Assembly: GCA_002989075.1 (NCBI GenBank)
Contig: PSQN01000016.1
Location: 1,469,346 to 1,533,345 of the forward strand
DNA: 64,000 nt
From: Arthonia radiata
Taxonomy: Eukaryota > Ascomycota > Arthoniomycetes > Arthoniales > Arthoniaceae
Reading direction: 5' to 3'
Shown: positions 1 to 62,285 of the stretch, piece by piece
Numbering within the stretch: position 1 is the first letter of the stretch
Layout: every line of letters starts with the position of its first letter
Made by a program: the position numbers and the translations under genes
Notes under the pieces: generated by a model
The model's database searches: none
The model's input: the letters and a program-made list of their open reading frames with translations, nothing else
Told to the model about the DNA's origin: nothing

Positions 1-924
1 ATGGATTGGAAGACGTCGGGGAGAAGGTGGGCGGTGTAGCCGTTTGTGGCGAGAATGACATTCGAGGCTTGCATACTTCTGTCTCTGGAGCGGACTGTCC
101 AGCTTGAATCTCCTCGCTGCTCGAGTGCGGTGACAGGCGTGTTCGCATAGATCTTCAAGCCTTTCGATTGCGCCACTTCGAGCACACCAGTAGCGAACTT
201 GTAGCTGTGCACGCTGCCTGCTTCCTTGTACTCGACGGCGCCGAGCGCATCCGGACACAGGAAGCGTCTTCGCGCCTCATCTCGGCCAATGATTGTATAG
301 CGCTCGCACTCGCCATCAATATGCGTATTCATGTAGCTCGTACATTTCTTTGCAGTCTCGAGCTGTTCGGCATCGTATATTACGTCGACGGTGCTCGAAG
401 GATGGACATCGCAATCAATCCCATGCTCTCCTACCAGAGCGTGTGTCGCTTTCACGTTGGCGTGCTCCAGCTTCGCGATGCGGACAGCTTCATCGAAGCC
501 TAACGCCTCGAGCTCATGTGGGAAGTGGCGGTATGATGCGCCCTGATATGAAATTAGCACGTGTCTTGCTCGTTGCCCACAACGCCTCGCTGCTAGAGGC
601 GGACCCCAAGGGATAGGAAGGATCGTTCTCTTCATGTATAGCAAAGGTACATCAACACCACACCTTTGTGTGGCCTCCATTACGACCTGTCGCTCCACTG
701 CATACTTCTCTAGCTTCGAGCATCACTACATGTGCAGACGGTTTCTTTTGAAGCATGTTGAGAGCCATGCAAGCACCGCTGATGCCGCTGCCAACAACGA
801 CATAGTCTGCGTTGTCCGTCCATGCTGACGGCGGGCGGATGTTTGGCTGGTGGGTGGCTTGCCAATAGGACTGTGTCGGATTAGCGACTGGTAACGAGAC
901 AAGTAGCGTTGAGCGCTCGTCCAT
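1..924 (-). CDS. FAD-dependent oxidoreductase (DAO family), 3' part cut by window edge
   Basis: Two exons are visible: 924-664 and 542-1, with an intron at 663-543 (GTGTGG donor, GCTAAT branch, ATCAG acceptor). The coding frame leaves the window at base 1. Residues 45-50 form the Rossmann GxGxxG (GSGISG) that binds FAD ADP. Residues 77-85 carry GATGRNGGH, the second FAD motif of the fungal family related to D-amino-acid oxidase and glycine oxidase. Exon 2 continues in the family pattern, with YRHFPHELEALG soon after the junction and an ILATNGYTAHLLPD motif near the edge. The start at 924 gives the usual N-terminal LPVxNPTQSYW segment and no signal peptide. These enzymes oxidise small amine substrates with O2 as acceptor. 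The substrate cannot be read here. Family assignment is firm; the specific function is unknown. Confidence 0.9.
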
Positions 925-1997: not shown

Positions 1998-3131
1998 TGT
2001 TGTGGTGTTTGGATGAATGGCGTGGTAATTAGAGAATTTGAAGTGGTTTGATGCTGAATAGCTTGACTGGAATTGATTACTGGTAAACGATTGACTGTGG
2101 TGGGTATTATTAAACGTGTGGATGTCGAATTGGTGGAAAGTTCGATGAAGGAGAGAAGATGAGCGAGAAGAAGGGGAGCTGAGGACTTGGAAGAGACTGC
2201 TCGCTTCAGGGGTTCCCAAATTGCTTTCGGGCCAATGGTCCAATCACGTCGGAGCCGAACCTCATTGACGCGCTAGCACCGCGCTGACTCGGAAATCCAG
2301 ATCCTTTCCGACGCGTCTCCGCCTTGCGTGCTTGCATCCAATACTCACTGCACGAAAGCGTCTTATCCACTCGTATTCCAGCAGACAACGGGATGTTCGC
2401 TAAATAGTCGAGCTGCAAGATGGAGCCCGGAGTCTGTACGTAGCAGCTCATGAAAAGCTTCGGCGCTGTTGCCTCACAACAATCTCTACTGGACTATGTG
2501 CCTCAATGAAGTGCTAGATAGAGCCGCGCAAGCAATGTGTTGCTATTCTGGCGCTGTATACTCATTCGTTGGCTCTTATGAAGAAGAGTGCAGAATTGAA
2601 ATCCCCTGGGCCCTGTACCTCTGTACATGTGTGCATTAGCCACTAGATCGGGATCTCTACAGTAATAGCTGCCCTTTGCTGGCAGTCGTTAGTACCCAGG
2701 AAAGGGTCCTCGTGAGCAGCGTCAATGGTGTCTATCAACGTCTCAGCTGCATTAATTTGCTCGGCACCGTAACCTGTTCCCTGCTGGATACTGCAATAGC
2801 ATAAGCGTCCTTACATATAGCGGATGTATGCGACCTCCTGGACTACTCATTGTAGGTCTCCGTGCCCTTCGTTCGCCCTGAGCTCTTCGTCCTCTCAAGG
2901 TCCATCACTGAACTCTGCGCATTCGTCCTGCGTGTTCCGGATAGGCTATTGATGGTTTTTGGTCAGTCTCGCGCACCAGACCGTGCTTTGCGACAATAAC
3001 GCCTTGGGCGCTCGAGTACCTGGACTGTGATGGTGCGAATTGCGTGGTATTGCGCATCATCATCTGAATGTTTACGGGACGTTCATGCGATGCTTGAGCG
3101 GTGTCGCTGTATGTCATCTGCTCCGATTCTG
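1998..3131. other. intergenic region between GPI-protein promoter and vps26 3' end
   Basis: This contains the upstream region of the GPI-protein gene, with pyrimidine/purine-biased tracts around 2080-2200, and the 3' flank of vps26. The open frames here (for example 2206-2451 and 2905-3117 on the minus strand) have no recognisable domain and I do not call them. Confidence 0.55.
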
Positions 3132-4358
3132 CTATGAGACGGCCATCTGTTTGTTCTGCTCGATAGCCAGGGGCTGATTCTCCGGAGCTTGTCGAAACAA
3201 CACTATCTCGCTCTGCTTAAAATATCGTCTCGCGTCCTCGTCGATCAACACTAGACTGAGGTAGTATCTCGTACTGTACTTCTTGTTCACCTCCCTGAAC
3301 GTCGGCGTGAGGTCAAAGCCGCCCAGGAACAGTCGTATCGGTATCGTCTCCCCTCTCGACGGGCTGCCATCCATGATCTCGAACCGCACCAGAGTCTCAG
3401 ACTCATTGTACTGATTCGGTGGCGCGCCAGTCGTCTCTCGTCGGATGATGCTGAGCTCCATGTGCTTTATCTTCAGCCGTACCAGTAAGAAGTATATCCT
3501 CCCCACGATCACGTCTTTTAGGTGGTACTTGCTCTTCGAGTACTCAAACTCAATGTGTAGGCAGTCCTCGATCCCAACGTCCATTTTGATGCTGCTGTTG
3601 ATCTCCGGTGGTATTCGGTAAGAGTAGACCCAGAGGTCCTTTTCTCGCATGACGTCGGACATGCGGCGGGAGACTGTGGCGCGAATGAAATAGCGTAAGC
3701 GGACATTGATGCCGTTGTATGATTCGTATTGCTTTTCGACGTTCTTGAAGCTGAAGGAGTAGGTTTGAGCGTGATGTAGCTCGCCTGGGCTGGCGAGCTC
3801 TTGGGAGGTAGAGAGAAATTCGTAGTGGTTACCGCGGTCGAAGAACATTTCTGTGACTCTGGGTTAGAACACGACCGGACAGGGCGTCGAACAGGCGCGA
3901 GTCTGTGGGAGCTTCTGCTGCGGTGCGCTGGTGGACCTGACACCGGATGTGGGTCTGGCGTACCTATGCTGCCAATGAACTGGACCTTGATCCCGGTGTG
4001 CTCGAGTCTCTTGCCATCTTTCGGCCTGACTGTGACATTGCCTGTGACCGACTCGCCGTCGAAATATAGTGGGCTGTATGTGGACCGTTGTCAGCTGCTG
4101 ACCTGAGTGTGCGCAATTCTGGCAGTGCAGTTAATGCTCAGAGGCTCCTTACGCCTTCTCTCTCCTGTTCTTGTCCAACTTCGTTTCCACCATCATCCGA
4201 TCGTCAGTGTCTTGAAGGACCTGCGATATGTGATCAGCCAAAGGCAAGCATCCGCCATGGTGGGCCTCGTGCAGTGCAGTCGCAGCGGCATTGGTAGGTT
4301 TCAAAGCGGAATCACTTACAACATCGATCTCGCACGGAGGCGCGAAGAAGATAGACAT
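3132..4358 (-). CDS. vps26: Vps26, retromer cargo-recognition subunit
   Basis: Four exons (4358-4320, 4220-4153, 4073-3964, 3850-3132) join in phase to 311 residues; introns are GTAAGT, GTAAGG and GTACGC type. The N-terminus MSIFF and the segments PLYFDGESVTG, HTGIKVQFIGSIE, ELASPGELHHAQTY, KQYESYNGINVRLRYF, REKDLWVYSY, MDVGIEDCLHIEFEYSKS and DEDARRYFKQSEIVLFRQ are diagnostic for the Vps26 arrestin fold. The protein pairs with Vps35 and Vps29 on endosomes and returns cargo such as the CPY receptor to the Golgi. The first exon encodes only 13 residues and would be missed by a plain frame scan. Length is normal for fungi, allowing for a short C-terminal tail. Nothing suggests decay. Confidence 0.97.
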
Positions 4359-4861
4359 GTTGGCTCAAGCAGGACCGGGATCATGAATGGTCTGGCCGTT
4401 CATGAATCCATCGGGAACGCTCAAGTTCGCAAACAATGGTTCAGGGTGAGACGTGCCCTTTTCCGTCAACGTTTTTTCACGGCAGGGTTCAGGGGTGCTG
4501 TTGACTTATCACAGCTATGCCCTCTGTCGAAATATGAGTACGCATACGAACGATCAAGAATGTATGTATCAGTGGACTAAAGCACCGAGGAAAGCGAAAA
4601 TCTCTAATATGGAGCTCGTATGAACAAGGAAATGTACACTATTTACAGACTAGGGGTATCAAGTTCGCTCGCTCTTGCATTCTATACATCCTTTCTCTCC
4701 TTCTCTTCTGTAACAGATTGGGTATCTCAGCATTAGTATATTCACATCAGCAGAGTGTGATGTAGTTCTCTTCCTTCTGCACATCTTCCAGACCAGTAGG
4801 TCTTTCCATTTGCGGCTTCTTTCAACGAGTACTCCACATCGTTAAAGCTCCATTTGAATTG
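4359..4861. other. intergenic, vps26 promoter side
   Basis: This lies between the vps26 start and the 3' end of the large coiled-coil gene. A TC-rich stretch near 4685-4715 and AT-rich 3'-UTR-like sequence are visible. No gene is supported. Confidence 0.55.
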
Positions 4862-37582: not shown

Positions 37583-37918
37583 TTTGTCTATCGCTTGCGG
37601 TTGTTGGTAGTCGACTGAGAAAGACAATGGGTTCGTATCGTTGGATTGGAAACTCGCAGTCACAAGCTTCAGCAAATTTTTGGTCGCGGTGGAAGCGAAA
37701 ATGCGAATGGTTCCGTGATCCCTAGAATATCCTTTTCTGGTAATGCGAGACAGGCTCTAGCATGACTCAGATCTCTAATGACGTGTGCTGATTGGATGAA
37801 AGACGAATGTTCTCGTTGATTGTAGCAGACAGATGCTCTTCAATAGCAGCTTCCAGGCGCTGGTCGCTCTGCTTGCGGTAGCACAAGATCATTCTCCGCC
37901 GCCGAACCACCTTTCGAC
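37583..37918. promoter_or_regulatory. bidirectional promoter of eEF1B and hsp78
   Basis: The 336 bp between the two start codons must serve both genes. ATTGG (reverse CCAAT) occurs at 37645-37649 and 37791-37795. An inverted heat-shock-element pair GAATGTTC (nGAAnnTTCn) lies at 37804-37813, on the hsp78 side, and could explain heat control of the chaperone. No TATA box is obvious. Confidence 0.6.
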
Positions 37919-40482
37919 ATGAACGTTACAAGGTTGAGCCATGCAGGCCGGATCGCTCGCTGCGTTGTCAGTCAGTCGGCACCGCCTGTCGCGCCCTCGC
38001 AGGCCAGCACGGGGGCGCTGCGCAGAGGGACTTTGCTGCCTCAAAGAGCGTCATGGTCGGCATTCAGGATGTCGCGTCCTTCAATATCATGTCGGACCTA
38101 CGCGACTGGCAACAGTGCCCGGCGACCGCACCCACCTGGTGGCACTCATCGTATAAATCTAGGTGGCGAGCCTGAACAGTCCGCTCTGGAACAGTACGGC
38201 ATCGATCTGACAGGACGCGCAAAAGCTGGCAAGCTAGACCCGGTGATTGGTAGAGATGCAGAGATACATCGGACGATTCAAATCCTCTCGCGACGAACAA
38301 AGAACAACCCTGTCATGATCGGCAGCGCAGGCACTGGCAAGACAGCAATACTGGAGGGCCTGGCCCAGCGCATCGTTCGAGGAGATGTGCCCGAGAGTGT
38401 CAAGAACAAGAAAGTGGTGTCACTCGATCTGGGGCAGCTCATCGCAGGAGCCAAGTTTCGAGGTGACTTTGAGGAGCGGCTTAAGAAAGTGCTGAAAGAG
38501 GTCGAGGAGGCGCATGGGGGTATTATACTCTTTATTGATGAATTGCACACCCTTCTCGGACTCGGGAAGGCGGAAGGCAGTATGGATGCCAGCAACCTGC
38601 TAAAGCCTGCGCTCTCGCGAGGCGAACTGCAATGCTGCGGTGCAACAACCCTTAATGAGTATAGGCAGATCGAGAAAGATGTGGCCCTGGCAAGGCGATT
38701 CCAGCCTATCTTGATAGATGAGCCGACGATGCAAGACACAATTTCGATCCTGCGAGGTATTAAGGACAAGTACGAGGTTCATCACGGTGTGCGCATTACA
38801 GACGGGGTAAGTTCACAGCGTCCACACTCTGGCTTTAATAATGTGTTGTGACCTATTTAAGAGCTGGTCCGCCGGTGTTCATCTAAAAATAGACATAAAG
38901 TCTTTGGACACTCTAGTGACATTGCTGTTCAGAGAATGTGCTGACACTTAGACCCCAGGCTCTGGTCGCCGCTGCGACATACTCGAACCGATATATTACA
39001 GATCGCTTTCTGCCCGACAAAGCAATCGATCTAGTTGATGAAGCTGCCTCAGCATTGCGACTGCAGCAGGAAAGCAAGCCGGACGCCATCCAGAGGCTTG
39101 ACAGGTCCATCATGACCATACAGATCGAATTGGAGTCGCTCAGAAAGGAAGATGACATTGCCTCTGTTGAACGTAGGGAGAAGCTCGAGAAGAGTCTGAA
39201 AGAAAAGCGAGATGTAGTGGCAGAGCTGAACGAGAAGTGGGAGAAGGAGCGCGCCAAGATTGAGGATATCAAGAATGCGCAAGAAGAACTTGAGCAGGCC
39301 AGAGTGGAGCTCGAGCAGGCACAGCGAGACGGTAACTTTCGTCGCGCGGGAGAGTTGCAATACGCCGTCATTCCAGGCTTGGAAAAACGACTACCACAGC
39401 CTGGCACAGACCGGGGCGCCGCTGGCGGTGACGCGATGATACACGACTCGGTCTCAGCAGATGATATCGCGAACGTAGTGTCGCGCACTACCGGCATACC
39501 TGTGACGAAGCTCATGTCTGGCGAGGTCGAGAAGCTCGTGCGCATGGAAGACTCTCTTGCAAAGCACGTGCGTGGTCAAGACGAAGCGTTGCATGCTGTC
39601 GCAAATGCCGTACGTATGCAACGGGCTGGCTTATCTGGATCTAACCGCCCAATCGCAAGCTTTATGTTTCTTGGACCAACGGGCGTCGGCAAGACTGAAC
39701 TCTGCAAGAATTTGGCCAATTTTCTTTTCTCGACGTCAGAGGCTGTCGTTCGTTTCGACATGTCAGAGTTCTCAGAGAAACATACAGTGTCGCGCTTGAT
39801 AGGATCGCCAGCTGGATACGTAGGCTACGATGATGCTGGACAACTAACCGAGGCTGTCAGACGAAAGCCCTATGCCGTGCTACTCTTTGATGAGTTTGAG
39901 AAAGCTCACAGAGACATCTCATCTCTCCTGCTTCAGGTGCTCGATGAAGGTTTCTTGACAGATGCACAAGGCCACAAAGTCGATTTCAGGAACACCATCA
40001 TTGTACTCACCTCCAATCTAGGCGCAGAAGTCCTCGTTGCAGCCCAGGAAGAGCCGCCCTCTGCAGCCAAGGTGGGTGAAGCCAGCGAGCCGGAAATTCC
40101 AGCAGCAGCGAAGAAAGCCGTTATGGACATCGTCCAGAGCTCGTATCCACCTGAGTTCCTGAATCGCTTGGATGAGTTCATCATCTTCCGCCGACTGTCC
40201 CGACATGCGCTCCGAGACATTGTGGACATTCGCCTCACCGAGCTACAGCAGCGCCTCGACGAGAGGCGGATCACTTTGGACGTGCCACAGGAGGTCAAAA
40301 GCTGGCTGTGCGAGCGTGGCTACGATCCCAGATATGGAGCCCGTCCTTTGAACAGGCTCATCTCTAGACAAGTCGGTAATGGCCTTGCTGACGGCATTAT
40401 CAAGGGACACATCCGGAGCGGGCAGACCGCTGAGGTGAAAATCAGCGAAAACAGCCAGGCTTTGAGTGTGACAGCAAGATGA
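37919..40482 (+). CDS. hsp78: mitochondrial ClpB-type disaggregase Hsp78
   Basis: Exons 37919-38806 and 38959-40482 encode 803 residues. The first ~70 residues are Arg/Ser/Ala-rich and end near CRTYATG, a mitochondrial presequence. As in Hsp78, the ClpB N-domain is absent. AAA1 has Walker A GSAGTGKT (135-142) and Walker [14 protein letters not shown]. The coiled-coil middle domain spans about 330-440. AAA2 has Walker A GPTGVGKT (535-542), [11 protein letters not shown] and the sensor-2 region [13 protein letters not shown]. The protein refolds and disaggregates matrix proteins together with mitochondrial Hsp70. Its intron (38807-38958) belongs to the introner-like group described in findings. 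The promoter has a heat-shock-element pair. Confidence 0.97.
38807..38958 (+). repeat. introner-like intron of hsp78
   Basis: The 152-bp intron begins GTAAGTTCACAGCGTCCAC, close to the 5' end of the 28573 unit. Near the 3' end it has TTCAGAGAATGTGCTGACAC, like the other copies, but uses a further CCCCAG acceptor 15 bases after the TTAG. Confidence 0.5.
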
Positions 40483-41367: not shown

Positions 41368-41853
41368 TAACTTCACTGGTGGTCTGTAGGAACCTATATT
41401 GCACGAAGGCCAGATATCTATATTTTAGTATAAGCCTCGACAGAGACACGAATACGAGTATAAGCATACGTAAGCAAGAGCAAAGCGTACAGGAACTTGC
41501 TACGCATCTACGCGTAGAAAGAGCATTATAAGAGGCGCAAATACGCGACATATACGAGACGCACGCGTCGCGCGCGACACGCGCTTAATAGAAGAAACTA
41601 GGGGCGCTATATCCTAAACTTAGAGTAAACATACTTAAAACAAAGAGAGCGGTACTTTAAAACCTTAAGGCACCGCTAAATATATCTAGAGCGCTCTTAT
41701 AAAACTATAGAGCGCCTACTAGCTAAACTTTATTAAAGCTATCTAGAACCTTAAAGATACGCTTATATATAAGAAGCGTATAAGTAGCGGAAGAGGAGCG
41801 TTAGATACTATAGAGCGCCGGCTCTAGAGTATTAAGAAGACGCTAATAGATTC
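41368..41853. other. degraded repeat, left part interrupted by the Copia composite
   Basis: This is AT-rich, stop-filled sequence. One plus frame reads as a charged helical stretch (EQSVQELATHLRVERAL) once TAG/TAA are taken as decayed Gln, so it was probably coding. It is interrupted at GATTC (41849-41853) and resumes at 52683. Family not identified. Confidence 0.45.
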
Positions 41854-42360
41854 TGTTGGAAATTAACCAACTAGCTGGTTAGCTGGAACCCTCAGGGGCC
41901 CAGAGTATTGGACAGGTCCTACTAGCTGTCTCGGTCTAGAATAGAACAAGTCTTTTACCTAAAGGGTCGGGCCTAGTGGCCCGGGCCTAGGACAAAAAGA
42001 AGCATTGTACGACCTGTTCTAGACAGCTGGCCCGTAGTCTAAAACAACACGAAATAGACTTAGAGACTAATAGTTTTAGATAGACAGAATTACTATCTTA
42101 TGCGGTAAGTTACGGGTTATCTAGCCCCTATTAAAAGAACAGATATCTAGTAAGTTCTATATAGGCCGCTAGACTTAGATATATAAGCTAAGATCTCTCT
42201 AAAGAATTTTAGCTAATAAGACAGACAATATAATAACAGCTTCTCCTTGCTACTAAGTATTGTACCTGTATCAAGTTTAAGTATTGTACTAGTTTTAAGC
42301 TGGTCTCGTCTTTCTACTCTTTGTAGTAGTATCCTTCTTCTTCCCTGCACCTTATTAATA
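41854..42360 (+). repeat. Copia LTR A
   Basis: 507 bp, starts TGTTGGAAATTAACC. It ends ATTAATA where the other copies have TTTTTAACA. Best-preserved 5' terminus of the four LTRs. Confidence 0.9.
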
Positions 42361-42376
42361 GGTTATAAGCCCAGGT
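42361..42376 (+). other. Copia primer-binding site attached to LTR A, cut by the inverted copy
   Basis: GGTTATAAGCCCAGGT. It equals the first 16 bases after LTR C except one G-to-A, and ends with CAGGT, one side of the internal 5-bp duplication. Confidence 0.8.
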
Positions 42377-42883
42377 TGTTAAAAAGATATAGAGAAGAAG
42401 AAGGATACTACTACAAAGAGTAAGAAGACGAGATTAGCTTAAGACTAGTGCAATACTTAAGCTTAATATAGGTACAATACTTAGTAGCAAAGAGAAGCTG
42501 TTATTATATTGTCTGTTTTGTTAGCTAAAATTCTCTAGAGAGATTTTAACTTATATATCTAAGTTTAGCGGCCTGTACAGAACTTACTAGATATCTGTTC
42601 TTTTAATAGAGGCTAGATAACCTGTAACTTACCGTATAAGACAGTAATTTTGTCTATCTAAAACTATTAGTCTCTAAGTCTATTCTGTGTTGTCTTAGAC
42701 TATAAGCTAGCTGTCTAAAACAGGTCGTATAATACTTCTTTTTGTCCTAGACCCGAGCTACTAGGCCCGACTCTTTAGGTAAAAGGCTTGTTCTATTTTA
42801 GACCGAGATAGCTGGTAGAACCTATCTAATACTCTAGGCTCCTAGGGCTTCCGGCTAACTAGCTAGTTAGTTAATTTCTAATA
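42377..42883 (-). repeat. Copia LTR B, inverted
   Basis: 507 bp in reverse orientation, starting on the plus strand with TGTTAAAAAG (complement of the LTR 3' end). It is the 3' LTR of the inverted internal region. Confidence 0.9.
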
Positions 42884-45800
42884 TATCTTCTTAATCGACT
42901 AGTTGTTTTAGCCGGATTGTAAGCTAATTTGAGTTTTAAACGTTAGTATTTTAGCTAAGTCGATCGGTTTTGTTAAACCGTCTGCTAATTGTTCCTTTGT
43001 AGAAACGTATTTGAGCTCTGTTTGACTTGCCTGAACGTTTTCTCTAACATAGTGATACTGTATATCAATATGCTTAGATTTAGCTTAGAAGGTAGGGTTT
43101 TTTATAAGTTCTTTTGCTGAATTGCTGTCGCTAAGTAATAGTTTTACCGGCAAAACTGGGGTCTCCGGTCTAATTTAACCGGCTTGCCCGGGCAAATATA
43201 TGCTTGCCTGGTGCGTTAGAGCCCGCCGAGTCTTTTTATCCGCAGACTTTTTAAAAGTACCCGCTAAAACGGTAGTAATCGAATTTTCTTTAAAAATTCC
43301 GGACAGTTCGGTAGCAATTAATCGGATAAATAACTGTTTCTTTATAGTTTCTTTAAGGGCTATATATTTGGCCTTACAAGAGCTTAAGGCGACCGTTTTT
43401 TGTAGCTTCGAATTTTAGCTAAGGGCTCCGTTTCTAAGTAGAAAGATATAGCCGGTAGTCGATCTCCTAGTACCAAGGTCCCCCCCCTAATTTACGTTAT
43501 AATAGCCGGTTATACCGTCTATTAAGAGAGATTTGTAGTAAAGGCTAAGGTTAGGAGTTTTATCTAAGTAAGCCTAAAGGCTACTTAAAACTCTCTAGTA
43601 CTCCTCGCTAGGATTTAATATATATCGGGCTAGTAGGCTAGTTGTAAAGGTAATATCGGGTCTTGTCTTTGTTGTTAGATACAAAATCGACCCAATTTAT
43701 TGCTAATAATTAGAAATATTGGCACTGCTAGCTTAGTTAGAATTTGATACTAATTTTAAGCTAACGGGTTGTAGTATTTTTCTAGGCATTCGCCCGTTTT
43801 TCTTCGAGTATTTAGTTAAAATTTTAGCTAAATAAGTCGACTGGTCTAGGCAAATCTTTTTCGCCGGGCGATTTCGAATAATTTTAATTTCTAGGAACTT
43901 ACTAACGTCTTTTAAGTTCTTAACCGTAAGAGTCTTATTTAGTTCTTAGTAGATTCTAGAGATTATTTCGATAGAATTAGATACAGCTAATATGTTGTCT
44001 ATATAGACAATTAAAGTTGCCTGCTTTCTAGTTCTTTAAATATAAATCGACTAATTGGATACTGGAGGTTCGAAACCTATACCTCTTAGTAATTCTTAAA
44101 GATAGGCTTTCTACTATCGGTCGGCCTGTTTTAGACCGTAAAGGGCCTTCTTTATTCAATAAACTTTATTAGTTCCGTTAGATAGGCTAGTTAGTTGCTT
44201 AATATAGACAACCTTGTCTAACTTTACATTAAAATAAGCTAATTTTACGTTCTATTGCTTTATTTCCTAGTCTTTCTCTGCTGCTAAGGCTAGTATAAGC
44301 CGGTAGGTAATTAAATTTACTATATTTATAAAGGTCTCTATAAAATTGAGGCCGGGTCTTTACTAACAGCTCTTAGCTACTCAGCGGGCTTTAAAAATCG
44401 GCTTACCCTCTAGAAGATACTTAATCTTCGGTACCCAGCGCTCTTTTAGCGCCTTTCTATCCGGCGGCAGCTCGGTTAATATTTAGGTTTCTTAGTTAGC
44501 TAGCTCTTTAAGCTCCGACTGCATTGCGTCTAGCTAAGAAGACTAGTTCTTGAATGTCCTTATTTCTTTTAAGTTATTGGGCTCTTTAGTAAATGCGACT
44601 AAGGCCTGTTCGACGTATTGTTCTAGGTTATTATAAAACTCGTTAAACTAATTTTTGTCGGCGTTTTTGTATATAAAATCTATTTTCTAGGCGCAATCGG
44701 TGTCTACTCGGCTAGGGTCTTCAGTACTTCTATAATCTAACTCGGTAGGAAGATTAGACTCGTTTAGAGCTCTAGTTTAGTATAGTTCTTATTTAGATTC
44801 GTCCGCTAGTTGTTAAGATATAGGGGGGGTATACTGTTTCTTATATAGAGGACTCCCTTCTTTATTAAGAGGTACCTCCCTATTATCTTAAGATTTAGCG
44901 ATCGGATTTAGCTTGTTTTTAAACTTAACTTCTAGTTGTTCTTCGAGCTCTTTAGGAATACTCTTGATTAATCGATTAACCGTAGATCCCCGTAGGTCTC
45001 AAATAAATTTTTCTTTCTAGATATAGACGTCTCTCTCCTAGTAAACCTTCCGGCTATTGGGATCTAAGAGCTTATATTGGTTCAATCTGTAGCCTATTAG
45101 AATATAGGTAGTTGCTCTAGCGTCTAGTTTTTTTAGTTTAGGTTCTTTAAGATAAGTAACTGAGCCCCAGATTTTAATAGTACTGATATCCGGTTTTTTA
45201 CTGTATTTTACTTCGTACGGAGTAATAAACCCCGGCAATCCGGTATAAGGGGTCCTATTATAAATATAGATAGCTGCTTTTAGCGCTTTACCCCAATATA
45301 TCTAGAGTAGCCCGGCGGTATAAAGTATTGCTCAAACTTTACTAACAATTATTCAGTTAAAGCGTTCGGCTCGTCTATTTTGCTGAAGAGTATATAGTAC
45401 GGATATCGTTAGAATAGCTCCTTTTTGTTCTAGAAGCTGTTTTATTCAGCCTTCTCGGTATTCTTTTGTGTTGTTTAAGTATAATCTTTTAAAAGAATGC
45501 TCGGACTACGTTTCTTTCTGAGTAATATAGATAGATAGTGCGTCGAAAATCTAGTCTTTAGACTATAGTACTTCGGTAGCCGTATACCGGGTTTTATTGT
45601 CTATAAAGCTAGTAAATAATTAACCTTTAGAAGGGGTTTGCGGTACAATTAGCCCGCAAATATCTGAGTAGACTTTTTCTAAATAATTGGCCGATTTGTC
45701 TAGAGTTTCTCGGCTAACTTTAGCCGTTGCCTTTGCTTTAAAGCAAATTTAGCAATTATCTCCCGATTTGTCCGAATAATCTATTTCTAGGGTAACCTTT

Positions 45801-47270
45801 TTAAGCTGTTTTAAGGTATTTTCGCCTATATGTCCTATTCGTTGATACTAAAGGTTAGTTTTCGAAGAAATAGTATAGAGAGATCGAACTGTATTAATAG
45901 TCTGAGCTTCTATTACTATTAAGCCGTTAACATACCGCCCCTCGGTAGTTAGTTGTCCGGCTTAATTAACTTTTGGCTTGTTTTAGCCAAGAGTTACCTT
46001 ACCTCCCCTCTTTCTAAGCTTATTAAAGCTTAGAAGGTTAATTCTGAATTCCTTAACAAATAAAACTTCGTCTAGAACAATTATTTTGTTCTTAAAGAAC
46101 AGTTTTACTTTGCCTATCTAAAAGACTTAGATTAACTTCCCCCCTCTCCAACGAATAATCCGGTTAGTTGACCGGATATCTGTTAGAAGGTCAATATTTG
46201 AGTAAATATAGCTTATTAAGCCTATATCAAAGATCTAAGAATTAGTAGAGTAATTAACTCTGTCTAGTAATGCTGTAAAGCATTGTTCTTCTTGTAAGTT
46301 AGAACTATATACAGAAAATATTAAAAAATTGGTGTTTTTGGAGCTTTTGTTAGAATTTAGCTAGAGATTTGGATATTTTTTCCAACAAGTTGCCGGTTTA
46401 TGCCCCTTTTTGTTGTAAAAGGGGCATTTTTCTTAGTTTTTACTTAGAGATTTTAATTTTTCTCCGGTCCTTTACGTCGATTTGTTGTCTATTGCAGTAA
46501 AAACCTTTTCTGCTGGGGTACTACCGCGGATTCAGCGAGACTCGTTTATAAGTTAACTAAATAAGTCCTGTAGACTTATATCGCTAGTCGTTTGCCGATA
46601 GCTTTAGCTAATAATAGCTACCGTGTGCTTATATTCGGAGGTTAGATTGTAAAGAACGTAGGTAGCTACTATCTTGTTAAATAGTGCTAGTCCTTAAGTT
46701 GCTAAATTATCCGTTAATTGTCTAATTTTAGTAAGATAAAGCTTAAGGTTTTTTACCTTACTAAGTGTAGTGCTAAAGAGCTCCTTGCAAATTAGAAACT
46801 TAAAACTAAAACCTTTTGATTTGTATAACCTTTTTAGACTATCTCAAAGTTCTAAAGAGTTATAAATCTCCTTTATTTAAATAAGAGGACCGTTCTTTAG
46901 AGTTAGTCGAATAAGAACTCCTGCCCTTGTTAACTGTTCCTAGCGGCTAGCTTCAGTAATATCTCTAGCTAAATAGCCGGAAAAGGGGATTATAATATTA
47001 CTGTAGCCCTTTTTATTTAAAAGGGCCTCTATTCGAATCGACCAAATGTTTTAATTAGTCGAGCTCTTAAGTTTAAGAATCTTATAAGAGAAGTTTATAG
47101 CTAAATATATAGTCGGAGATTTCCAAAAAAAAAGAAAATTCTGTTCTAATAGTTAAATTGAGCTAAAAATTTAGAGTCGATTGGTAATAGAATCGTTCGG
47201 AGGTGCCGATAGGTGTAGTAGGGGAAATATTTTCTAAAAAGGAAATTCAAAAGGAATTGATGCTAACCCG
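42884..47270 (-). pseudogene. Copia gag-pol, inverted copy, degraded
   Basis: On the minus strand, in order from the right: gag with a zinc knuckle at ~46390-46440 (second Cys changed to Tyr), integrase, reverse transcriptase (YIDN at ~44005) and RNase H. The best surviving frame is 45238-45038, the integrase C-terminal end (PYEVKYSKKPDISTIKIWGS). Its gag-proximal edge, ACCCG at 47266-47270, abuts LTR C. There is no LTR of its own at that end. Confidence 0.85.
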
Positions 47271-47777
47271 TATTGGAAATTAACCAACTAGCTGGTTAGC
47301 CGGAACCCTTAGGGGCCTAGAGTATTGGACAGGTTCTATTAGCTGTCTTGGTCTAGAATAGAACAAGTCTTTTATCTAAAGGGTCGGGCCTAGTAGCCCG
47401 GGTCTAGAACAAAAAGAAGCATTATACAACCCGTTCTAGATAGCTGGCCCGTAGTCTAAGACAATACGAAATAGACTTAGAGACTAATAGTTTTAGATAG
47501 ACGGAATTACTATTTTTTATAGTAAGTTATAGGTTATCTGGCCTCTATTAAAAGAACAGATATCTAGTAAGTTCTATACGGGCCGCTAGACTTAGATATA
47601 TAAGCTAGAATTTCTCTAGAGAATTTTAGCTAATAAGACAGACAATATAATAACAGCTTCTCCTTGCTACTAAGTATTGTACCTATATTAAGCCTAAGTA
47701 TTGTACCAGTCTTAAGCTAATCTCGTCTTTCTACTCTTTATAGTAGTATCCTTCTTCTTCCCTGTACCTTTTTAACA
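47271..47777 (+). repeat. Copia LTR C
   Basis: 507 bp, starts TATTGGAAATTAACC (TG changed to TA) and ends TTTTTAACA. It is the 5' LTR of the plus-strand element. Confidence 0.9.
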
Positions 47778-47793
47778 GGTTATAAGCCCGGGT
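47778..47793 (+). other. Copia primer-binding site, half-tRNA type
   Basis: GGTTATAAGCCCGGGT directly follows LTR C. From my knowledge of eukaryotic initiator tRNA-Met, the complement of its anticodon stem-loop is GGTTATGAGCCCGG. The site matches this except for one G-to-A at a TpG, as RIP would give. Drosophila copia primes from the same tRNA region. Confidence 0.65.
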
Positions 47794-50700
47794 TAGTACC
47801 AATTCCTTTTAAATTTCCTTTTTAGAAAATATTTCCCCTACGACACCTATCGGCACCTCTAAACGATCCTATTACCAATCGACTCTAAATTTTTAGCTCA
47901 ATTTAACTATTAGAACAGAATTTCCTTTTTTTTCGGAAATCTCCGACTATATATTCGGCTATAGACTCCTCTTATAAGATTCTTAAACTTAAGGGCTCAA
48001 CTAATTAAGACATTTAGTCGATTCGAATAGAGGCTCTTTTAACTAAAAAGGGCTACAGTAATGTTATAATTCCCTTTTCCGGCTATTTAGCTAAAGATAT
48101 TACCAAAGCTAGCCGTTAGAAACGATCGACAAGGGTAGCAGCCCTTATTTAACTAACTCTAAAGGACGGTCCTCTTATTTAAATAAAGGAGATTTATAAC
48201 TCTCTAGAGCTTTAAAATAGCCTAAAAAGGTTATACAAATCGAAAGGTTTTAGTTTCGAGTTTCTAATTTGCAAGGAGCTCTTTAGCACTATACTTAGTA
48301 AGGTAGAAAACCTTAAGCTTTACCTTACTAAAATTAGACAATTAACGGACGATTTAGTAACCCGAGGACTAGCACTACCCAACAAGGTAGTAGCTGCCTA
48401 CGTTCTTTACAATCTAACCTCCGAATACAAGCATACGGTAGCTATTATTAGCTAAAGCTACCGATAAACGACTAGCGATATAAGTCTATAGAACTTATTT
48501 AGTTAACTTATAGACGAGTCTCACTAAATTTACAGTAGTACCTCAGTAGAAAAGGTTTTTACTGCAATAGACAATAAATCGACGCAAAGGACCAGAGAAC
48601 AATTAAAATCTCTAAGTAAAAACTAAGAAAAATGCCCCTTTTGCAACAAAAAGGGGCATAAACCGGCAACTTGTTGGAAAAAATACCCAAACCTCCGGCC
48701 AAATTCTAACAAAAGCTCTAAAAACACCGATTTTTCAATATTTTCTGTACATAGTTCCAACCTATAAGAAGAACAATACTTTATAGCATTACTAGATAGA
48801 GTCAATTACTCTACTAATTCTTAAATTCTCGATATAGACTTAATAAGCTATATTTGCTCGAATATTAACCTTCTAACAGATATCTGGCCAACTAACCGGA
48901 TTATTTGTTGAAGAGGGAGAAAGTTAATCTAAGCCTTTTAAACAGGCAAAGCAAAACTGTTCTTTAAGAACAAAACAATTGTTCTAGACAAAGTTTTGTT
49001 TATTAAGGAATTTAGAATTAACCTTCTAAGCTTTAATAAGCTTAAAAAGAGAGGAGATAAGGTAACTCTTGGTCAAAACAAGCCAAAAGTTAATTGAACC
49101 GGACAAGTAACTACCGAGAAGCGGTATATTAACGGCCTAATAGTAATAGAAGCTTAGACTATTAATATAGTTTAATCTCTCTACACTATTTCTTCGAAAA
49201 CTAACCTTTAGCATTAATAAATAGGATATATAGGTAAAAATGCCTTAAAACAGCTTAAAAAGGTTGCCCTAGAAACAGATTATTCAGACAAATTAAGAGA
49301 TAATTACTAAATTTGCTTTAAAGCAAAGGCAACAGCTAAAGTTAGCTAAGAAACTCTAGACAAATTAATTAATTATCTGAAAAAAGTCTACTTAGATATT
49401 TACGGGCTAATTATACCGCAAACCCCTTTTAAAGGTCGATTATTTACTAGCTTTATAGACAATAAAACCTAGTATACAACTACCGAGGTACTATAGTCTA
49501 AAGATTAGGTTTTTAATGCACTATCTACTTATATTACTCAGAAAGAAACGTAGTTCGAGCATCCTTTTAAAAGACTATACTTAAACAACGTAAAAGAATA
49601 CCGGGAAGGCTAGATAAAACAGCTTCTAAAACAAAAAGAAGCTATTCTAACGATATCCGTACTATATACCTCTTAGTAAAACGGACAAGCTAAACGCTTT
49701 AACCAAACAATTGTTAGTAAAGTTCAAGCAATACTTTATACCGCCGGGCTACCCTAGATATATTGGAGTAAAGCGCTAAAAGCAGCTATCTATATTTATA
49801 ATAGGACCTCTTATACTAAATTACCGGGGTTTATTACCCTATACGAAGCAAAATACGGCAAAAAACCGGATGTCAGTACTATTAAAATCTAGAGCTTAGT
49901 TACTTATCTTAAAGAACCCAAACTAAAAAAGCTAAACGTTAGAGTAACTACTTATATCCTAATAGGCTATAGATTAAACCAATATAAGCTCTTAGACCCT
50001 AATAACCGGAAGGTTTACTGAGGGAGAGACGTTTACGTTTAAAAAGGAAAATTTGTTCGGAACCTACGGAGATCTATAGTTAATCGATTAACTAAAAATA
50101 TTTCTAAAGAGCTTAAAGAACAACTAAAAGTTAAGTTTAAAAACGAGCTAAATCCGACCGCTAAATCTTAAGATAATAGGGAGATACCTTCTAATGAAGG
50201 AGGGAGTCCTCTATATAAGAAATAGTATATCCCTCCTATATCTTAACAACTAGCAGACAAATTTAGATAAAAACTATACTAAACTAGAGCTCTAAACGAG
50301 TCTAACCTTTCTACCAAGTTAGATTATAGAAGTACTAAAGACCCCGGCCGAGTAGATATCGATTACACCTAGAAAATAGATTTTATATACAAAAACGCCG
50401 ACAAAAATTAGTTTAACGAGTTCTACAATAACCTAGAATAATACGCCAAACAGGCCTTAGTCGCAGTTACTAAAGAGCCTAATAACTTAAAAGAAATAAG
50501 AGTATCTAAGGATTAACCTTCTTAGCTAAACGCAATACAGTTAGAGCTTAAAGAGCTAGCTAACTAAGAAACCTAGATATTAACCGAGCTGCTGTTAGGT
50601 AGAAAGGCGCTAAAAGGACGCTAGATACCGAAGATTAAGTATCTTTCGAAGGGCGAGCCGATTTTTAAAGCCCGCTGGGTAGCTAAGGGCTGCCAGCAAA

Positions 50701-52175
50701 GACCCGGTCTCAATTTTATAGAGACCCTTGCGAATATAGTAAATTTAATTATCTACCGGCTTATACTAGCCTTAGTAGCAGAGAAAGACTAGAAAATAAA
50801 GCAATAGGACGTAAAATTAGCTTATTCTAACACAAAGTTAGACAAGGTTGTCTATATCGAGCAACTAACTGGCCTATCTAACAGAACTAATAAAGTTTAT
50901 TGGATAAAGAAGGCCCTTTACGGTCTAAAACAGGCCGACCGACAGTAGAAAGCCTATCTTCGAGAATTACTAAGGGGCATAGGTTTTAACCCTCTAGTAT
51001 CCAATTAGTCGGTTTATATTTAAAGAACTAGAAAGTAGGCAACTTTAATTGTCTATATAGATAATATATTAGCTGTATCTAATTCTACCGAAATAATCTC
51101 TAGAATCTACTAGAAACTAAATAAGACTCTTACGGTTAAGAACTTAGGAGACGTTAGTAAGTTCCTAGGAATTAAAATTACTCGAGATTGCCCGGCAAAA
51201 AAGATTTGCCTAGACTAGTCGACTTATTTAGCTAAAATTTTAACTAAATACTCGAAGAAAAACGGGCGAATGCCTAGAAAAATACTACAACCCGTTAGCT
51301 TAAAATTAGTATCAAATTCTAACTAAGCTAGCAGTGCCAATATTTCTAATTATTAGCAATAAATTGGGTCGATTTTGTATCTAACAACAAAGATAAGACC
51401 CAATATTGCCTTTATAACTAGCCTACTAGCCCGATATATATTGAATCCTAGTAAGGAGCACTAGAGAGTTTTAAGTAGCCTTTAGGCTTACTTAGATAAA
51501 ACTTCTAACCTTAGCCTTTACTATAAATCTCCCTTAATAGACGGTATAACCGGCTATTTTAACGTAGATTAGGGGGGGAACCTTGGTACTAGGAGATCGA
51601 CTATCGGTTATATCTTTCTACTTAGAAACGGAGCCCTTAGCTAAAATTTAAAGCTATAAAAAACGGTCGCCTTAAGCTCTTATAAGGCTAAATATATAGC
51701 CCTTAAAGAAGCTATAAAGAAACAGTTATTTATCCGATTAATTGCTATCGAACTATCTAGGATTTTTAAAGAAAATTCGATTACTACCGTTTTAGCGGGT
51801 ACTTTTAAAAAGTCTGCGGATAAAAAGACTTGGCGGGCTCTAACGCACCAGGCAAGCATATATTTGCCTAAGCAAGCCAGTTAAATTAGACCGGAGACCC
51901 CGGTTTTACCGGTAAAACTGTTACTTAGCGACAGCAATTCGGCAAAAGAACTTATAAAAAACCCTACCTTCTAAGCTAAATCTAAGCATATTGATATACA
52001 GTATTACTATATTAGAGAAAACGTTCAGACAAGTTAAATAGAGCTTAAATACGTTTCTACAAAGAAACAATTAGCAGACGGTTTAATAAAACCAATCGAC
52101 TTGGCTAAAATACTAACGTTTAGAACTTAAATTAGCTTACAATCTGGCTAAAACAACTAGTCGATTAAGAGAGTG
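47794..52175 (+). pseudogene. Copia gag-pol, plus-strand copy, degraded
   Basis: Gag carries an intact CCHC zinc knuckle (CPFCNKKGHKPATC, ~48632-48673). Integrase remnants lie at ~49430-50040, including the YGKKPDVSTIKI and YILIGYRLNQYKLL motifs. Reverse transcriptase is at ~50640-51250 with KALYGLKQA and the catalytic site VYIDNILAVS (second Asp is Asn). RNase H is at ~51600-52100 with LLSDSNSAKEL and KKQLADGLIKP. Dozens of TAG/TAA codons sit where Gln or Trp is expected. A short purine tract (AAGAGAGTG) precedes LTR D. Confidence 0.88.
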
Positions 52176-52682
52176 TATTGAAAATTAACTAACTAGCTAG
52201 TTAGCCGGAACCCTTAGAGGCCTAGAGTATTAAATAGGTTCTACCAGCTATCTCGGTCTAGAATAGAACAAGCCTTTTATCTAAAGGGTCGGGTCTAGTA
52301 GCCCGGATCTAGGACAAAAAGGAGCATTATACGATCTATTCTAGACAGCTAACCTATAGTCTAAAACAACACAGAATAGACTTAGAGACTAACAGTTTTA
52401 GATAAACAAAATTACTGTCTTATATAGTAAGTTACAGGTTATCTAACCCCTATTAAAAGAACAGATATTTAGTAAGTCCTATATAGGCCGCTAGACTTAA
52501 ATATATAAGCTAAAATTCCTTTAGAGAATTTTAGCTAATAAGGTAGACAATATAACAACAGCTTCTCCTTGCTACTAAGTATTGTACCTGTATTAAGCCT
52601 AAGTATTGTACCAGTCTTAAGCTAGTCTTATCTTTCTACTCTTTGTAGTAGTATCCTTCTTCTTTCCTGTATCTTTTTAACA
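52176..52682 (+). repeat. Copia LTR D
   Basis: 507 bp, starts TATTGAAAATTAACT and ends TTTTTAACA, followed by GATTC, the outer target duplication. Confidence 0.9.
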
Positions 52683-53600
52683 GATTCTTCTATATAGCGT
52701 ATATAGACTATAGTTGCGTTATAGGTTCTAAGTAAGAAATATATATATATATACCCTCTTTAGACCAGCTAACTATATAGATTTAAGTTAAAACAGCTAA
52801 GTAAATAGAGAGTTAAGAGCTTCTTAAAGAAATTCAAAAGTTAATTCTAGCTATAGCCGTAGTTTAAACTCTTTAAAGTAGTATAGTTAAGATTACTCTT
52901 TCTAGTATATAAGCAGTACTATAGATATAGAGTATAGTTATAATAGCTAGCCTAAAAGTTCTATATTAAGACTTTCTTATTAAGATACTAGGAGTTCTAC
53001 TTAGAACGCTAGTTAACTATATAGATAAGAAGATAAATATAGCTCTATAGAGGGTAATTGAAAGAAGCTTAGTAAGCGTAGTAGAACGTTTATAAGTTAT
53101 ATAGGCCTTCTAGCTATATATACTATATAAATAAGATATATAATAGATATAAAATAAGAGTATATAAAGAGAAAGTAAGATATATAAATTACTAGTTATT
53201 AGGCTCTCTATTTAGGCTATATAGTATAAAGTAGTCTAAAAAGAACTTATCTTTAATATATAGCTCTTTAATATAAGAATCTTTAATTAAAGTATTTAAG
53301 TTTAATACTACTTTAAGTATTAATAGTAGAGCTACTATTAGTTAGCCTACTATTATATAGCGTACTATAGCTAATATATAGAAGTATATAATATTTATAC
53401 GTATAGCGTAAATAGCGTATCTTATATAAATTATAGTAAGAAGTATAGAGCCTAGCAGTATAGAAAGTACTATATATTTTAAATATACTTTAAAAGAATT
53501 TAAATATAGTAGACTAGCCTAGCTATATAGTTATAGTATATTTAGTATATAGCTAAACTATAGATAGATACTAAGAACTTTACCCTCTATATAATCTAGG
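52683..53600. other. degraded AT-rich repeat, right part
   Basis: Continues the sequence broken at 41853. Extremely TpA-rich with no readable frame. Host element unidentified. Confidence 0.5.
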
Positions 53601-53785
53601 TGTAGGACAGAGAGCAGTTAGATAGCAAAAAGGGCTTAAATAGGCCCTACTAGTATTTAAGCTAATTATTGAGGAGACCAGAAAGGGATACGTCTACTAG
53701 AGGAAAGATATCTTTCTAGAATCGCAGCCTTTCTAAATAGACAATATTCTGTCTCAATTCGCTATTAGAACGTCTATATATTACA
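53601..53785 (-). repeat. Gypsy LTR, 3' LTR of the minus-strand element
   Basis: 185 bp, TGTAGGACAGAG...ATATTACA on the plus strand. It matches 61418-61602 along its length. Confidence 0.88.
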
Positions 53786-59300: not shown

Positions 59301-61417
59301 TCGCTTCTCTACTTTCTTAGGCTCGCTATTTAGAGTCCGGTCTAGTAGCAAACTAACGTCTAATAAAACCGCTATTTAATACTTATAACGTTTATCCGCT
59401 CTTATCTATAGAATCGCGGAGTAGTACTATTTACCTTTTTATAAATATACTAAAATTACGTCTTTATTAACGATCTCAATAGATTTAGCTTCTGCTACCC
59501 GTTCTTTAGGCGCAGAAAGGTTTCTCTAAGTAATTATTCTTATTATCTAGCTAATTTAAGACTTAACTTACTTAAGCTATAGGTATTCTAAGACGAGGCT
59601 ATATTCTATAAAGTTAGCTAAATATAGATAGAGTTAGTAATATTGTTTTTCCTTATATACGTCTCTTATAGTTATATTTACGTTATAAGCGCTATAAAGC
59701 TATAGCTTATTTTTATTAAGAAACTTAGTATACAGGAGCTTTACTTTATATAATTTTTACTATCCTCTTTTAAGTACAATACAATAATTAATAAGGTTAA
59801 TCTTTATACTAAAATCTACTAACGCAAGAACCTCTTGCGGCGACCTACTTAGCTGTACCAAGACTTTAATTCGTCCTTACCGTTAATCGATAGCTTTAAG
59901 CTTTAGAGACGCGAGGCTTACTCTTAAGGTCTATCGTTTCTTTATCTAACTAACGTCGAATTAACATCGATTTGGGGCGTAGTATATTTAGTAGTATAAT
60001 GCCCTTTCTAATTGTACGTAAAGTAGGTAATATTTATCTTACTATATATCGACCCTAGTTGTCTCTATACAGCAGAGCTATTGTCTCTTTGTTGGACCGG
60101 TAAGTTGCCTCGTTCTTAATATAAACTGCCTCGTTCGTAGTCCGACTCCTATAGAGATGCTCTAGCGTTATAACCACTATAGTTTGTATCTAATCCGCTA
60201 CCGGAGCGATCTCGGTTTATATTAGTATTGCGGGCGTTCTGCGATATACTACGATTAATATTTATATATTAACAAACTTTTTTTAGAAGCTTGTTTGTAT
60301 CTTTAAGTAGGTTTTCTAAGAAACTTTGCTTAATTAGCTTTACCTTAATTTATAAAGATAAGTATATATAGTAAAATACGGCCCGATTTAGGTTCAGTAT
60401 CTTGCTACCTAGCAACTTAGTTTCTTTGTTCTATAAAAAGCTTAGAAAGTTCTTAAGCTTCTGCGTTGAACTCTATATCGACGTAAAGAACTTTTCTATA
60501 TTAGCTATAGTAGCTGTAGCTAAGTCGACGATATATTCTATTATCTATTCTTTAAAGTACGCCTATAGGTAGAGCAACGTCTTCTCTTTATTCTCTTCGG
60601 CGTAAGTTTACTATCTATTCGCTAGGTCTCTAAGAAGTCTTTAAACATATTAAATAATAATATAAACGTTGTCGAGGTCCAATATATTAACTATCTAAAA
60701 TCTTTTTTTAATAGTTTAAGTCTATTAAGTGCTTATAAAGCTTATAGCTCTCTTAAGCTTAGACGTCTTTTTCTTAAGAAGCTCGTTAATTTAGCTTTAA
60801 AGGCTTAAATCGCTCTATAGCCGCTTACTACCAGCCCCTAAATTATAGATAGACTAGAGCTTAACTTTGAGTATTCGCTTTTTAAGCTTAAGCTTCTTAA
60901 TAGTGTACTGCTACTGCTATACTAGTAGTTCTTGTCTTAGCTTTCGTACTTTAACGCTTAAGAAGACGCTAAAGAGAGATTCTTTGCGGTTAAAGCCTTA
61001 ATAAGCCCCTTCGTTGTTGTTATTGTTTTAATTTAGACTATTGTTCTTTCTAGTTTGCGATCTACTTAGCGTCTATTCGCCGGCTTATAAGCTCTCCTAC
61101 TTATTGTTGTTGCTAAATTCTATATAAGGGTTCTAGTCTTCTTCGGCGTTAGCTATATTTTGCTACGCTCTGTATTCTGCTTGTACGGCGGATATAAAGC
61201 GACTACCGTTGTGTACTTAGTTCCTTGCTTGTTTTCTTTAAATACGGTACTTGTTAACATTGACTATTAATTAATTTTAATATTATTTATTTTAAGGTGT
61301 ATACAGAGTCTCGGTTATACTTAATTATACTAAATTAACCTTTAAACAACGTCGATAAGGTATCTAACTACCGGCCGCCCTCCTTGTAGGTTTAGAATAA
61401 TTAGAATGTAATTTAGA

Positions 61418-61602
61418 TATAGAGTAGGAAGCAGTTAGATAGCAAAAAGGGTTTAAATAGGCTCTACTAGTGTTTAAGCTAATTATTAAGAAGACTAGAA
61501 AGGGATACGTTTACTAGAGAAAAGATATCCTTCTAGAATTGCAGCCTTCTTAAATAGGCAACATTCCGTTCTAATTCGCTATCGGGACGTTTATGCATTA
61601 CA
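61418..61602 (-). repeat. Gypsy LTR, 5' LTR of the minus-strand element
   Basis: 185 bp, begins TATAGAGTAGGAAG on the plus strand (TG changed to TA relative to the other LTR) and ends TGCATTACA. Confidence 0.88.
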
Positions 61603-62285
61603 GTATAGAAGTTCTACGCTATACTATAGCTAATATTTATATACTAGTAAACTTTCTTTAGAAGCTTATTTATATCTTTAAGTAGGTTCTTTAAGAGACC
61701 TTACTTAAATAGCTTTATTTTAATCTATAAAGATAAGTATATATAGTAAAATATAGTCTAATTTAGATTTAATATCTTACTACCTAGTAACTTAGTTTCT
61801 TTATTTTATAGAAAGCTTAAAAAGTTCTTAAACTTCTATATTAAACTCTATATTAATATAAAGAACTTTTTTATATCAGCTATAGTAGCTATTACTAAGT
61901 TAATAATATATTCTATTATCTATTTTTTAAAGTACGCCTATATATAAAGTAATATCTTCTTTTTATTCTCTTTAGCGTAAGTTTACTATCTATTTACTAG
62001 ATCTTTAGAGAGTTTCTAAATAGACTAAATAATAATATAAATATTATTAAAATTCAATATATTAGCTATTTAAAATCTTTTCTTAATAGTTTAAGTCTAT
62101 TAAGTATCTATAGAGTTAATAGCTTTTTTAAGCTTAGACGTCTCTTTCTTAAAAAGCTTATTAATTTAGCTTTAAAGGCTTAAATTATCCTAGAGCTACT
62201 TGCTACTAGCCTCTAAATTATAGAAAGACTAAAGCTTAACTTTAAGTATTTACTTTTTAAACTAGAGCTTCTTAATAGTATACTT
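61603..62285 (-). mobile_element. truncated second copy of the Gypsy gag region
   Basis: This aligns in the same orientation with about 60228-60910 inside the adjacent Gypsy element (shared AGAAGCTT, TATCTTTAAGTAGGTT and ATAAAGATAAGTATATATAG). It is more AT-rich, so it is probably older. It is cut on the right by the element starting at 62286. Confidence 0.75.

Follow-up and report, generated by a model that had tools for sequence, protein, structure and literature searches.

A 10.8-kb compound Copia retrotransposon in the genome of Arthonia radiata is best read as the product of an antisense nested insertion into a primer-binding site (PBS), a subsequent inversion mediated by the resulting arms, and repeat-induced point mutation (RIP), a history that we consider probable. 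The unit lies in the window, a 64,000-nt stretch (C2:1469346-1533345) of a genome of 33.5 Mb in 16 contigs. The original prediction had taken the same structure for a fossil of autointegration, captured by a resident element. Its order, LTR A(+), 16 bp of PBS, LTR B(−), internal region(−), LTR C(+), internal region(+), and LTR D(+), is correct to the base.

Each of the four LTRs is 507 nt long. LTR A (41854-42360, +) leads into the PBS piece (42361-42376, +; GGTTATAAGCCCAGGT), which ends in CAGGT (42372-42376), the left copy of an inner duplication, and is joined there to the 3′ terminus of LTR B (42377-42883, −). The inverted internal region (42884-47270, −) begins with CGGGT on its own strand (ACCCG at 47266-47270) and abuts the 5′ terminus of LTR C (47271-47777, +). 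The upright PBS and internal region (47778-52175, +), which contains the Copia gag and RVT_2 fragments, carries one single, intact CGGGT at 47789-47793 and runs into LTR D (52176-52682, +). All the junction bases had been read correctly, and the 5-bp inner duplication stands. The inverted arms (42377-47270 and 47789-52682) measure 4,894 nt, are 90% complementary and are spaced by 518 nt; both extend exactly from a target duplication to an LTR terminus, far beyond chance, and their internal parts, 4,387 nt each, are in equal register. A second duplication, absent from the original prediction, brackets the whole unit: GATTC at 41849-41853 (+) is matched exactly at 52683-52687 (+), and the chance probability of such a 5-bp match is ~0.0016.

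As judged from its gag and RVT_2 matches, its TG...CA LTRs and its 5-bp duplication, the unit is a Ty1/Copia LTR retrotransposon. Two of the three fragments of the upright copy that were tried matched the Copia gag and reverse transcriptase families, both just below the Pfam curated cut-offs (PF14223, E = 7.9e-06, 25.9 bits against a cut-off of 27; PF07727, E = 3e-06, 27.4 bits against 31.6), scores that reflect how short these remnants of a broken copy are; the third had no retroelement match in Pfam. LTR A begins with TG, LTRs B, C and D finish in CA, and the remaining termini are one transition off. We take the PBS to resemble the anticodon half of the initiator Met tRNA. From ~41 kb the sequence is AT-rich, with the TpA excess and CpA/TpG depletion that mark RIP, a pattern that by itself makes a filamentous fungus the very likely host. 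Just ahead of this AT-rich block, open frames at 37847-40482 form a coding region that is presumably Hsp78/ClpB-like, by its motifs. The AT-rich part also holds a 674-bp direct repeat (60236-60909 and 61611-62284, 83% identical), and 53589-53785 and 61406-61602 match each other too. An Rfam search of the window returned nothing at gathering scores.

Two LTR ends sit at one duplicated PBS site, with the 5-bp footprint of the family, so an integrase-type event inserted the ends of a family element, joining two LTR termini to both sides of CGGGT in a PBS of the same family. That the CAGGT/CGGGT pair is the usual footprint holds across the genome: of 9 full-length copies inspected, 8 are flanked by a 5-bp target duplication, exact in 6 and one transition apart in 2. 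The ninth (L057, 235-5638) is full-length without a target duplication, its own two LTRs share few mutations (z = −1.28, with 98% of pairs higher), and by its sequence it is likely a recombinant of two copies. We rejected the 5-bp duplication as proof of autointegration because a nested insertion leaves the same one; the junctions are silent on whether the attacking ends and the target belonged to one molecule. In the genome search for the same junctions, neither inner junction occurs elsewhere among the scored matches (40 of 589 and 40 of 335 candidates scored).

The proposed history would run as follows. Element 1, bounded by LTRs A and D, would have inserted first, making the outer GATTC duplication. 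A second Copia element of the same family would then have entered the PBS of element 1 in antisense orientation, with CGGGT duplicated in the process, giving the map LTR A, PBS, a guest reading 3′ LTR(−), internal(−), PBS(−), 5′ LTR(−), then CGGGT, internal(+) and LTR D. A single crossover between the inverted 4.9-kb arms would flip the middle, so that what had been the 5′ LTR of element 2 became LTR C(+). Sequence was also exchanged between the arms over ~1.4 kb, and RIP scarred all parts. We infer both the order of events and the arm crossover as the cause of the flip. In a symbolic check, antisense nesting in the PBS plus an arm crossover yields the observed order, the orientations, and the inner and outer duplications. 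The GATTC copies stand around A and D as in one ordinary insertion, which supports nesting. This history explains the map as exactly as self-attack does and is simpler, and this genome holds examples of antisense nesting, of recombination where copies are nested and of exchange between these arms.

We annotated 23 other loci (L043-L045 and L047-L066), of which L047-L066 follow the order of junction-query matches, leaving out L043, L046 and the copies within the window itself. Same-family nesting was found at 5 of these 20 (L047, L057, L061, L062 and L064). It can be read on both sides at L064, where an antisense solo LTR lies inside an internal region between 5-bp duplication copies one transition apart; at the other four it is read on one side, a family copy adjoining an internal fragment of another copy in sense (L047, L057) or antisense (L061, L062) orientation. 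An antisense solo LTR is likewise found inside an LTR at L045, again with 5-bp duplication copies one transition apart, and within the PBS of another copy at L043 (3885-4905), with GGTTA on either side. L043 (C7) matches the second junction query over nearly its full length at 81%, and its junction is a different one, 11 bp from the PBS site of the window. Since L043 surfaced through this partial junction-query match and L045 through adjacent LTR matches, neither is a random draw. All three insertions that can be read on both sides (L043, L045 and L064) have been reduced to solo LTRs, a state that records homologous recombination at each. Having taken two insertions, the 16-bp PBS may be a preferred target, but a locus found through the junction query yields no targeting rate. 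The annotated loci include neither a second flipped nest nor an un-flipped full-length antisense nest read on both sides.

Two further loci have unusual structures of their own. L046, read in addition to the 23, is a truncated copy in which an LTR begins right after internal position 321, and is perhaps another nest. L055 (98-5208), a family copy, has its own target duplication (GTGTT) and an internal inverted duplication in the order 1-221(+), 3870-2222(−), 2112-4398(+), with a 17-bp overlap between the first two alignments; this arrangement looks like fold-back template switching during reverse transcription, a mechanism suggested by the order of the pieces.

Evidence that the two arms paired comes from their shared mutations. 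Of the 4,387 internal positions, 419 distinguish one arm from the other, 411 by a transition and 8 by a transversion. The comparison set comprised 23 other copies, many of them incomplete; 13 extend over the windows at 3,000-4,000 and 11 over all of 3,250-4,387. From position 3,000, mutation sharing between the arms reaches z = 5.2, 6.2, 5.5 and 5.0 in four windows, where the arm pair ranks 1, 1 and 2 of 105 pairs and then 5 of 91; over 3,200-4,000, z = 7.4. The twelve earlier windows give z of 0.9-2.6, the family background, and between positions 0 and 3,250 the arm pair has no more mutations in common than a pair of other copies. Divergence agrees: over 3,250-4,387 the arms are 5.8% divergent from each other and, on average, 8.7% and 9.4% from other copies. 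The sharing continues into the adjoining LTRs, where B and D over positions 1-250 (z = 2.68) fall in the top 1.1% of 2,278 pairs, and ends at LTR position ~242, with z = −0.76 beyond. Because mutations common to the arms rise above family background from ~3,200, the arms must have exchanged sequence, and we read this as a conversion or recombination tract of ~1.4 kb in which they paired and swapped sequence. With approximate ends, from internal ~3,200 to LTR ~242, it lies at 42642-44070 (−) on the B-arm side and at 50989-52417 (+) on the D-arm side.

This tract marks exchange, not a crossover as such, and a palindrome should acquire one too, whatever its origin. Along the arms, the density of RIP has no clean reciprocal step that would mark a crossover, the relatives of each arm, taken window by window, do not switch between arms, and no marker displaying the crossover was found. 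At family transversion sites that segregate, the arms match at 21 of 22 and differ at arm position 811, a difference that suggests two source elements under whatever model.

A sister-LTR phylogeny from raw differences was tried and set aside: LTRs A, B, C and D lie at much the same distance from one another as from the LTRs of other copies, and three transversions among them are absent from 64 other LTR sequences, so that raw phylogeny cannot choose a history. Raw 2:2 sites divide as AC|BD 15, AB|CD 6 and AD|BC 5, with 14 of the 15 AC|BD sites at LTR positions up to 242. We calibrated a shared-mutation test on the own-LTR pairs of eight elements (L066 gave no usable pair); the seven with a target duplication yield z of 1.37-3.35. 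Over the whole LTR, the values are 2.38 for A-C, 1.44 for B-D, 1.08 for B-C, 0.86 for C-D, 0.65 for A-B and 0.16 for A-D, which places A-D and B-C under all seven ordinary control elements. Over positions 1-250, A-C (2.2) and B-D (2.68) are sister-like against controls of 1.53-2.46, with A-D at 0.05 and B-C at 0.03; over 250-507, A-B (0.64) and C-D (1.32) fall inside a wide control range of 0.34-2.78.

These calibrated values fit neither nesting nor autointegration. The sister-like AC|BD pairing at 1-250 requires later conversion under the first and under the second too. Predicted by neither, the A-C pairing is counted against both, and it weighs somewhat more against nesting, where A-D and B-C should be sisters over their whole length; conversion may have wiped out that signal. 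The A-C excess over 1-250 lies in the top 4.6%, which is not significant alone with six pairs tested, and conversion is its likely cause.

The strongest competitor, which we consider unlikely, is the history put forward in the original prediction: a cDNA attacks its own PBS in inverted orientation, and the resulting circle with two inverted LTRs enters a resident element by recombination of a circle LTR with the resident's 5′ LTR. A symbolic check of autointegration plus circle capture also gives the observed map exactly, and the A-C sharing over LTR 1-250 could mirror repair copying at circle capture. The inverted two-LTR circle has precedent: passages of a yeast study name it, beside two truncated circles, among the Ty autointegration products (PMC4751563), and in the sections consulted of a Magnaporthe study split reads between LTR and internal sequence point to autointegration circles (PMC9694575). 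There, circles of MAGGY, MGRL3 and GYMAG1 are inferred to arise mainly by autointegration, and those of Copia1 mostly by homologous recombination, with a small fraction from autointegration (PMC9694575). The yeast abstract states that sequence junctions gave no sign of autointegration; in passages of its text, one mosaic read is consistent with autointegration into a truncated circle, and the inverted circle is compatible with none of the five remaining mosaic reads (PMC4751563).

Against this history stands the number of steps, namely self-attack, survival of the circle, and homologous recombination that hits the right LTR of a resident from the same family. A single cDNA as the source of both attacking ends and target finds no support, as A-B and C-D are not sister-like over the whole LTR and their values over 250-507, within the control range, supply no marker of a single molecule; the difference at site 811 also suggests two sources. 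Nor does capture of an inverted circle through its LTR follow from the map, since nesting plus an arm crossover gives an identical one. Overall, the LTR and arm comparisons revealed no marker that favors autointegration and no decisive one against it.

In another history, which we regard as quite improbable, two cDNAs sharing a particle or a nucleus were joined first, one antisense into the PBS of the other, after which the composite integrated once at GATTC via the A and D ends and the arms flipped. It produces the same map, and near-identical sources would account for the 21 of 22 sites alike and for the arms being the closest of 105 pairs by total transversions (8). This closeness is barely beyond that of the next pair (9) and the following ones (9-11), so membership in one subfamily suffices, and this genome offers no demonstrated case of integration between cDNA molecules. 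Finally, although long inverted repeats can be assembled in the wrong orientation, an assembly error is very improbable, as every junction coincides with both an LTR end and a target duplication and the differences between the arms make reads distinguishable; were only the inner block mis-oriented, a plain nested insertion would remain.

Nesting followed by inversion, our preferred reading, bears on how autointegration is recognized in genomes. The inverted-autointegration map is the nested-plus-inverted map, and a fossil of autointegration in a genome therefore cannot be recognized by its junctions alone, but calls for inherited LTR markers or a relative in which the nest is un-flipped. Were autointegration true here, it would mean that suicide circles can re-enter chromosomes. 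A literature search by titles and the starts of abstracts, in a collection with few papers from subscription journals, retrieved no genomic autointegration fossil and no compound element with inverted LTRs.

Among known systems, nested same-family LTR insertions resemble the window in having LTR termini at a 5-bp duplication inside another copy, and the nest at L043 shares both its antisense orientation and its PBS target. Unlike a plain nest, the window has the block between the arms flipped, with the right-hand LTR of the guest reversed and without its own PBS at the junction. In TIR-TIR inversions of insertion sequences, a crossover of inverted copies flips the intervening DNA, as proposed here (PMC3004938), whereas the repeats in the window are the arms of two nested retrotransposons of a eukaryotic Copia family. 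The inverted autointegration circle of Ty1 and retroviruses, as passages of PMC4751563 describe it, likewise has LTR ends at an inverted internal site with a target duplication; that circle is extrachromosomal, and the window adds an upright second element and an outer duplication.
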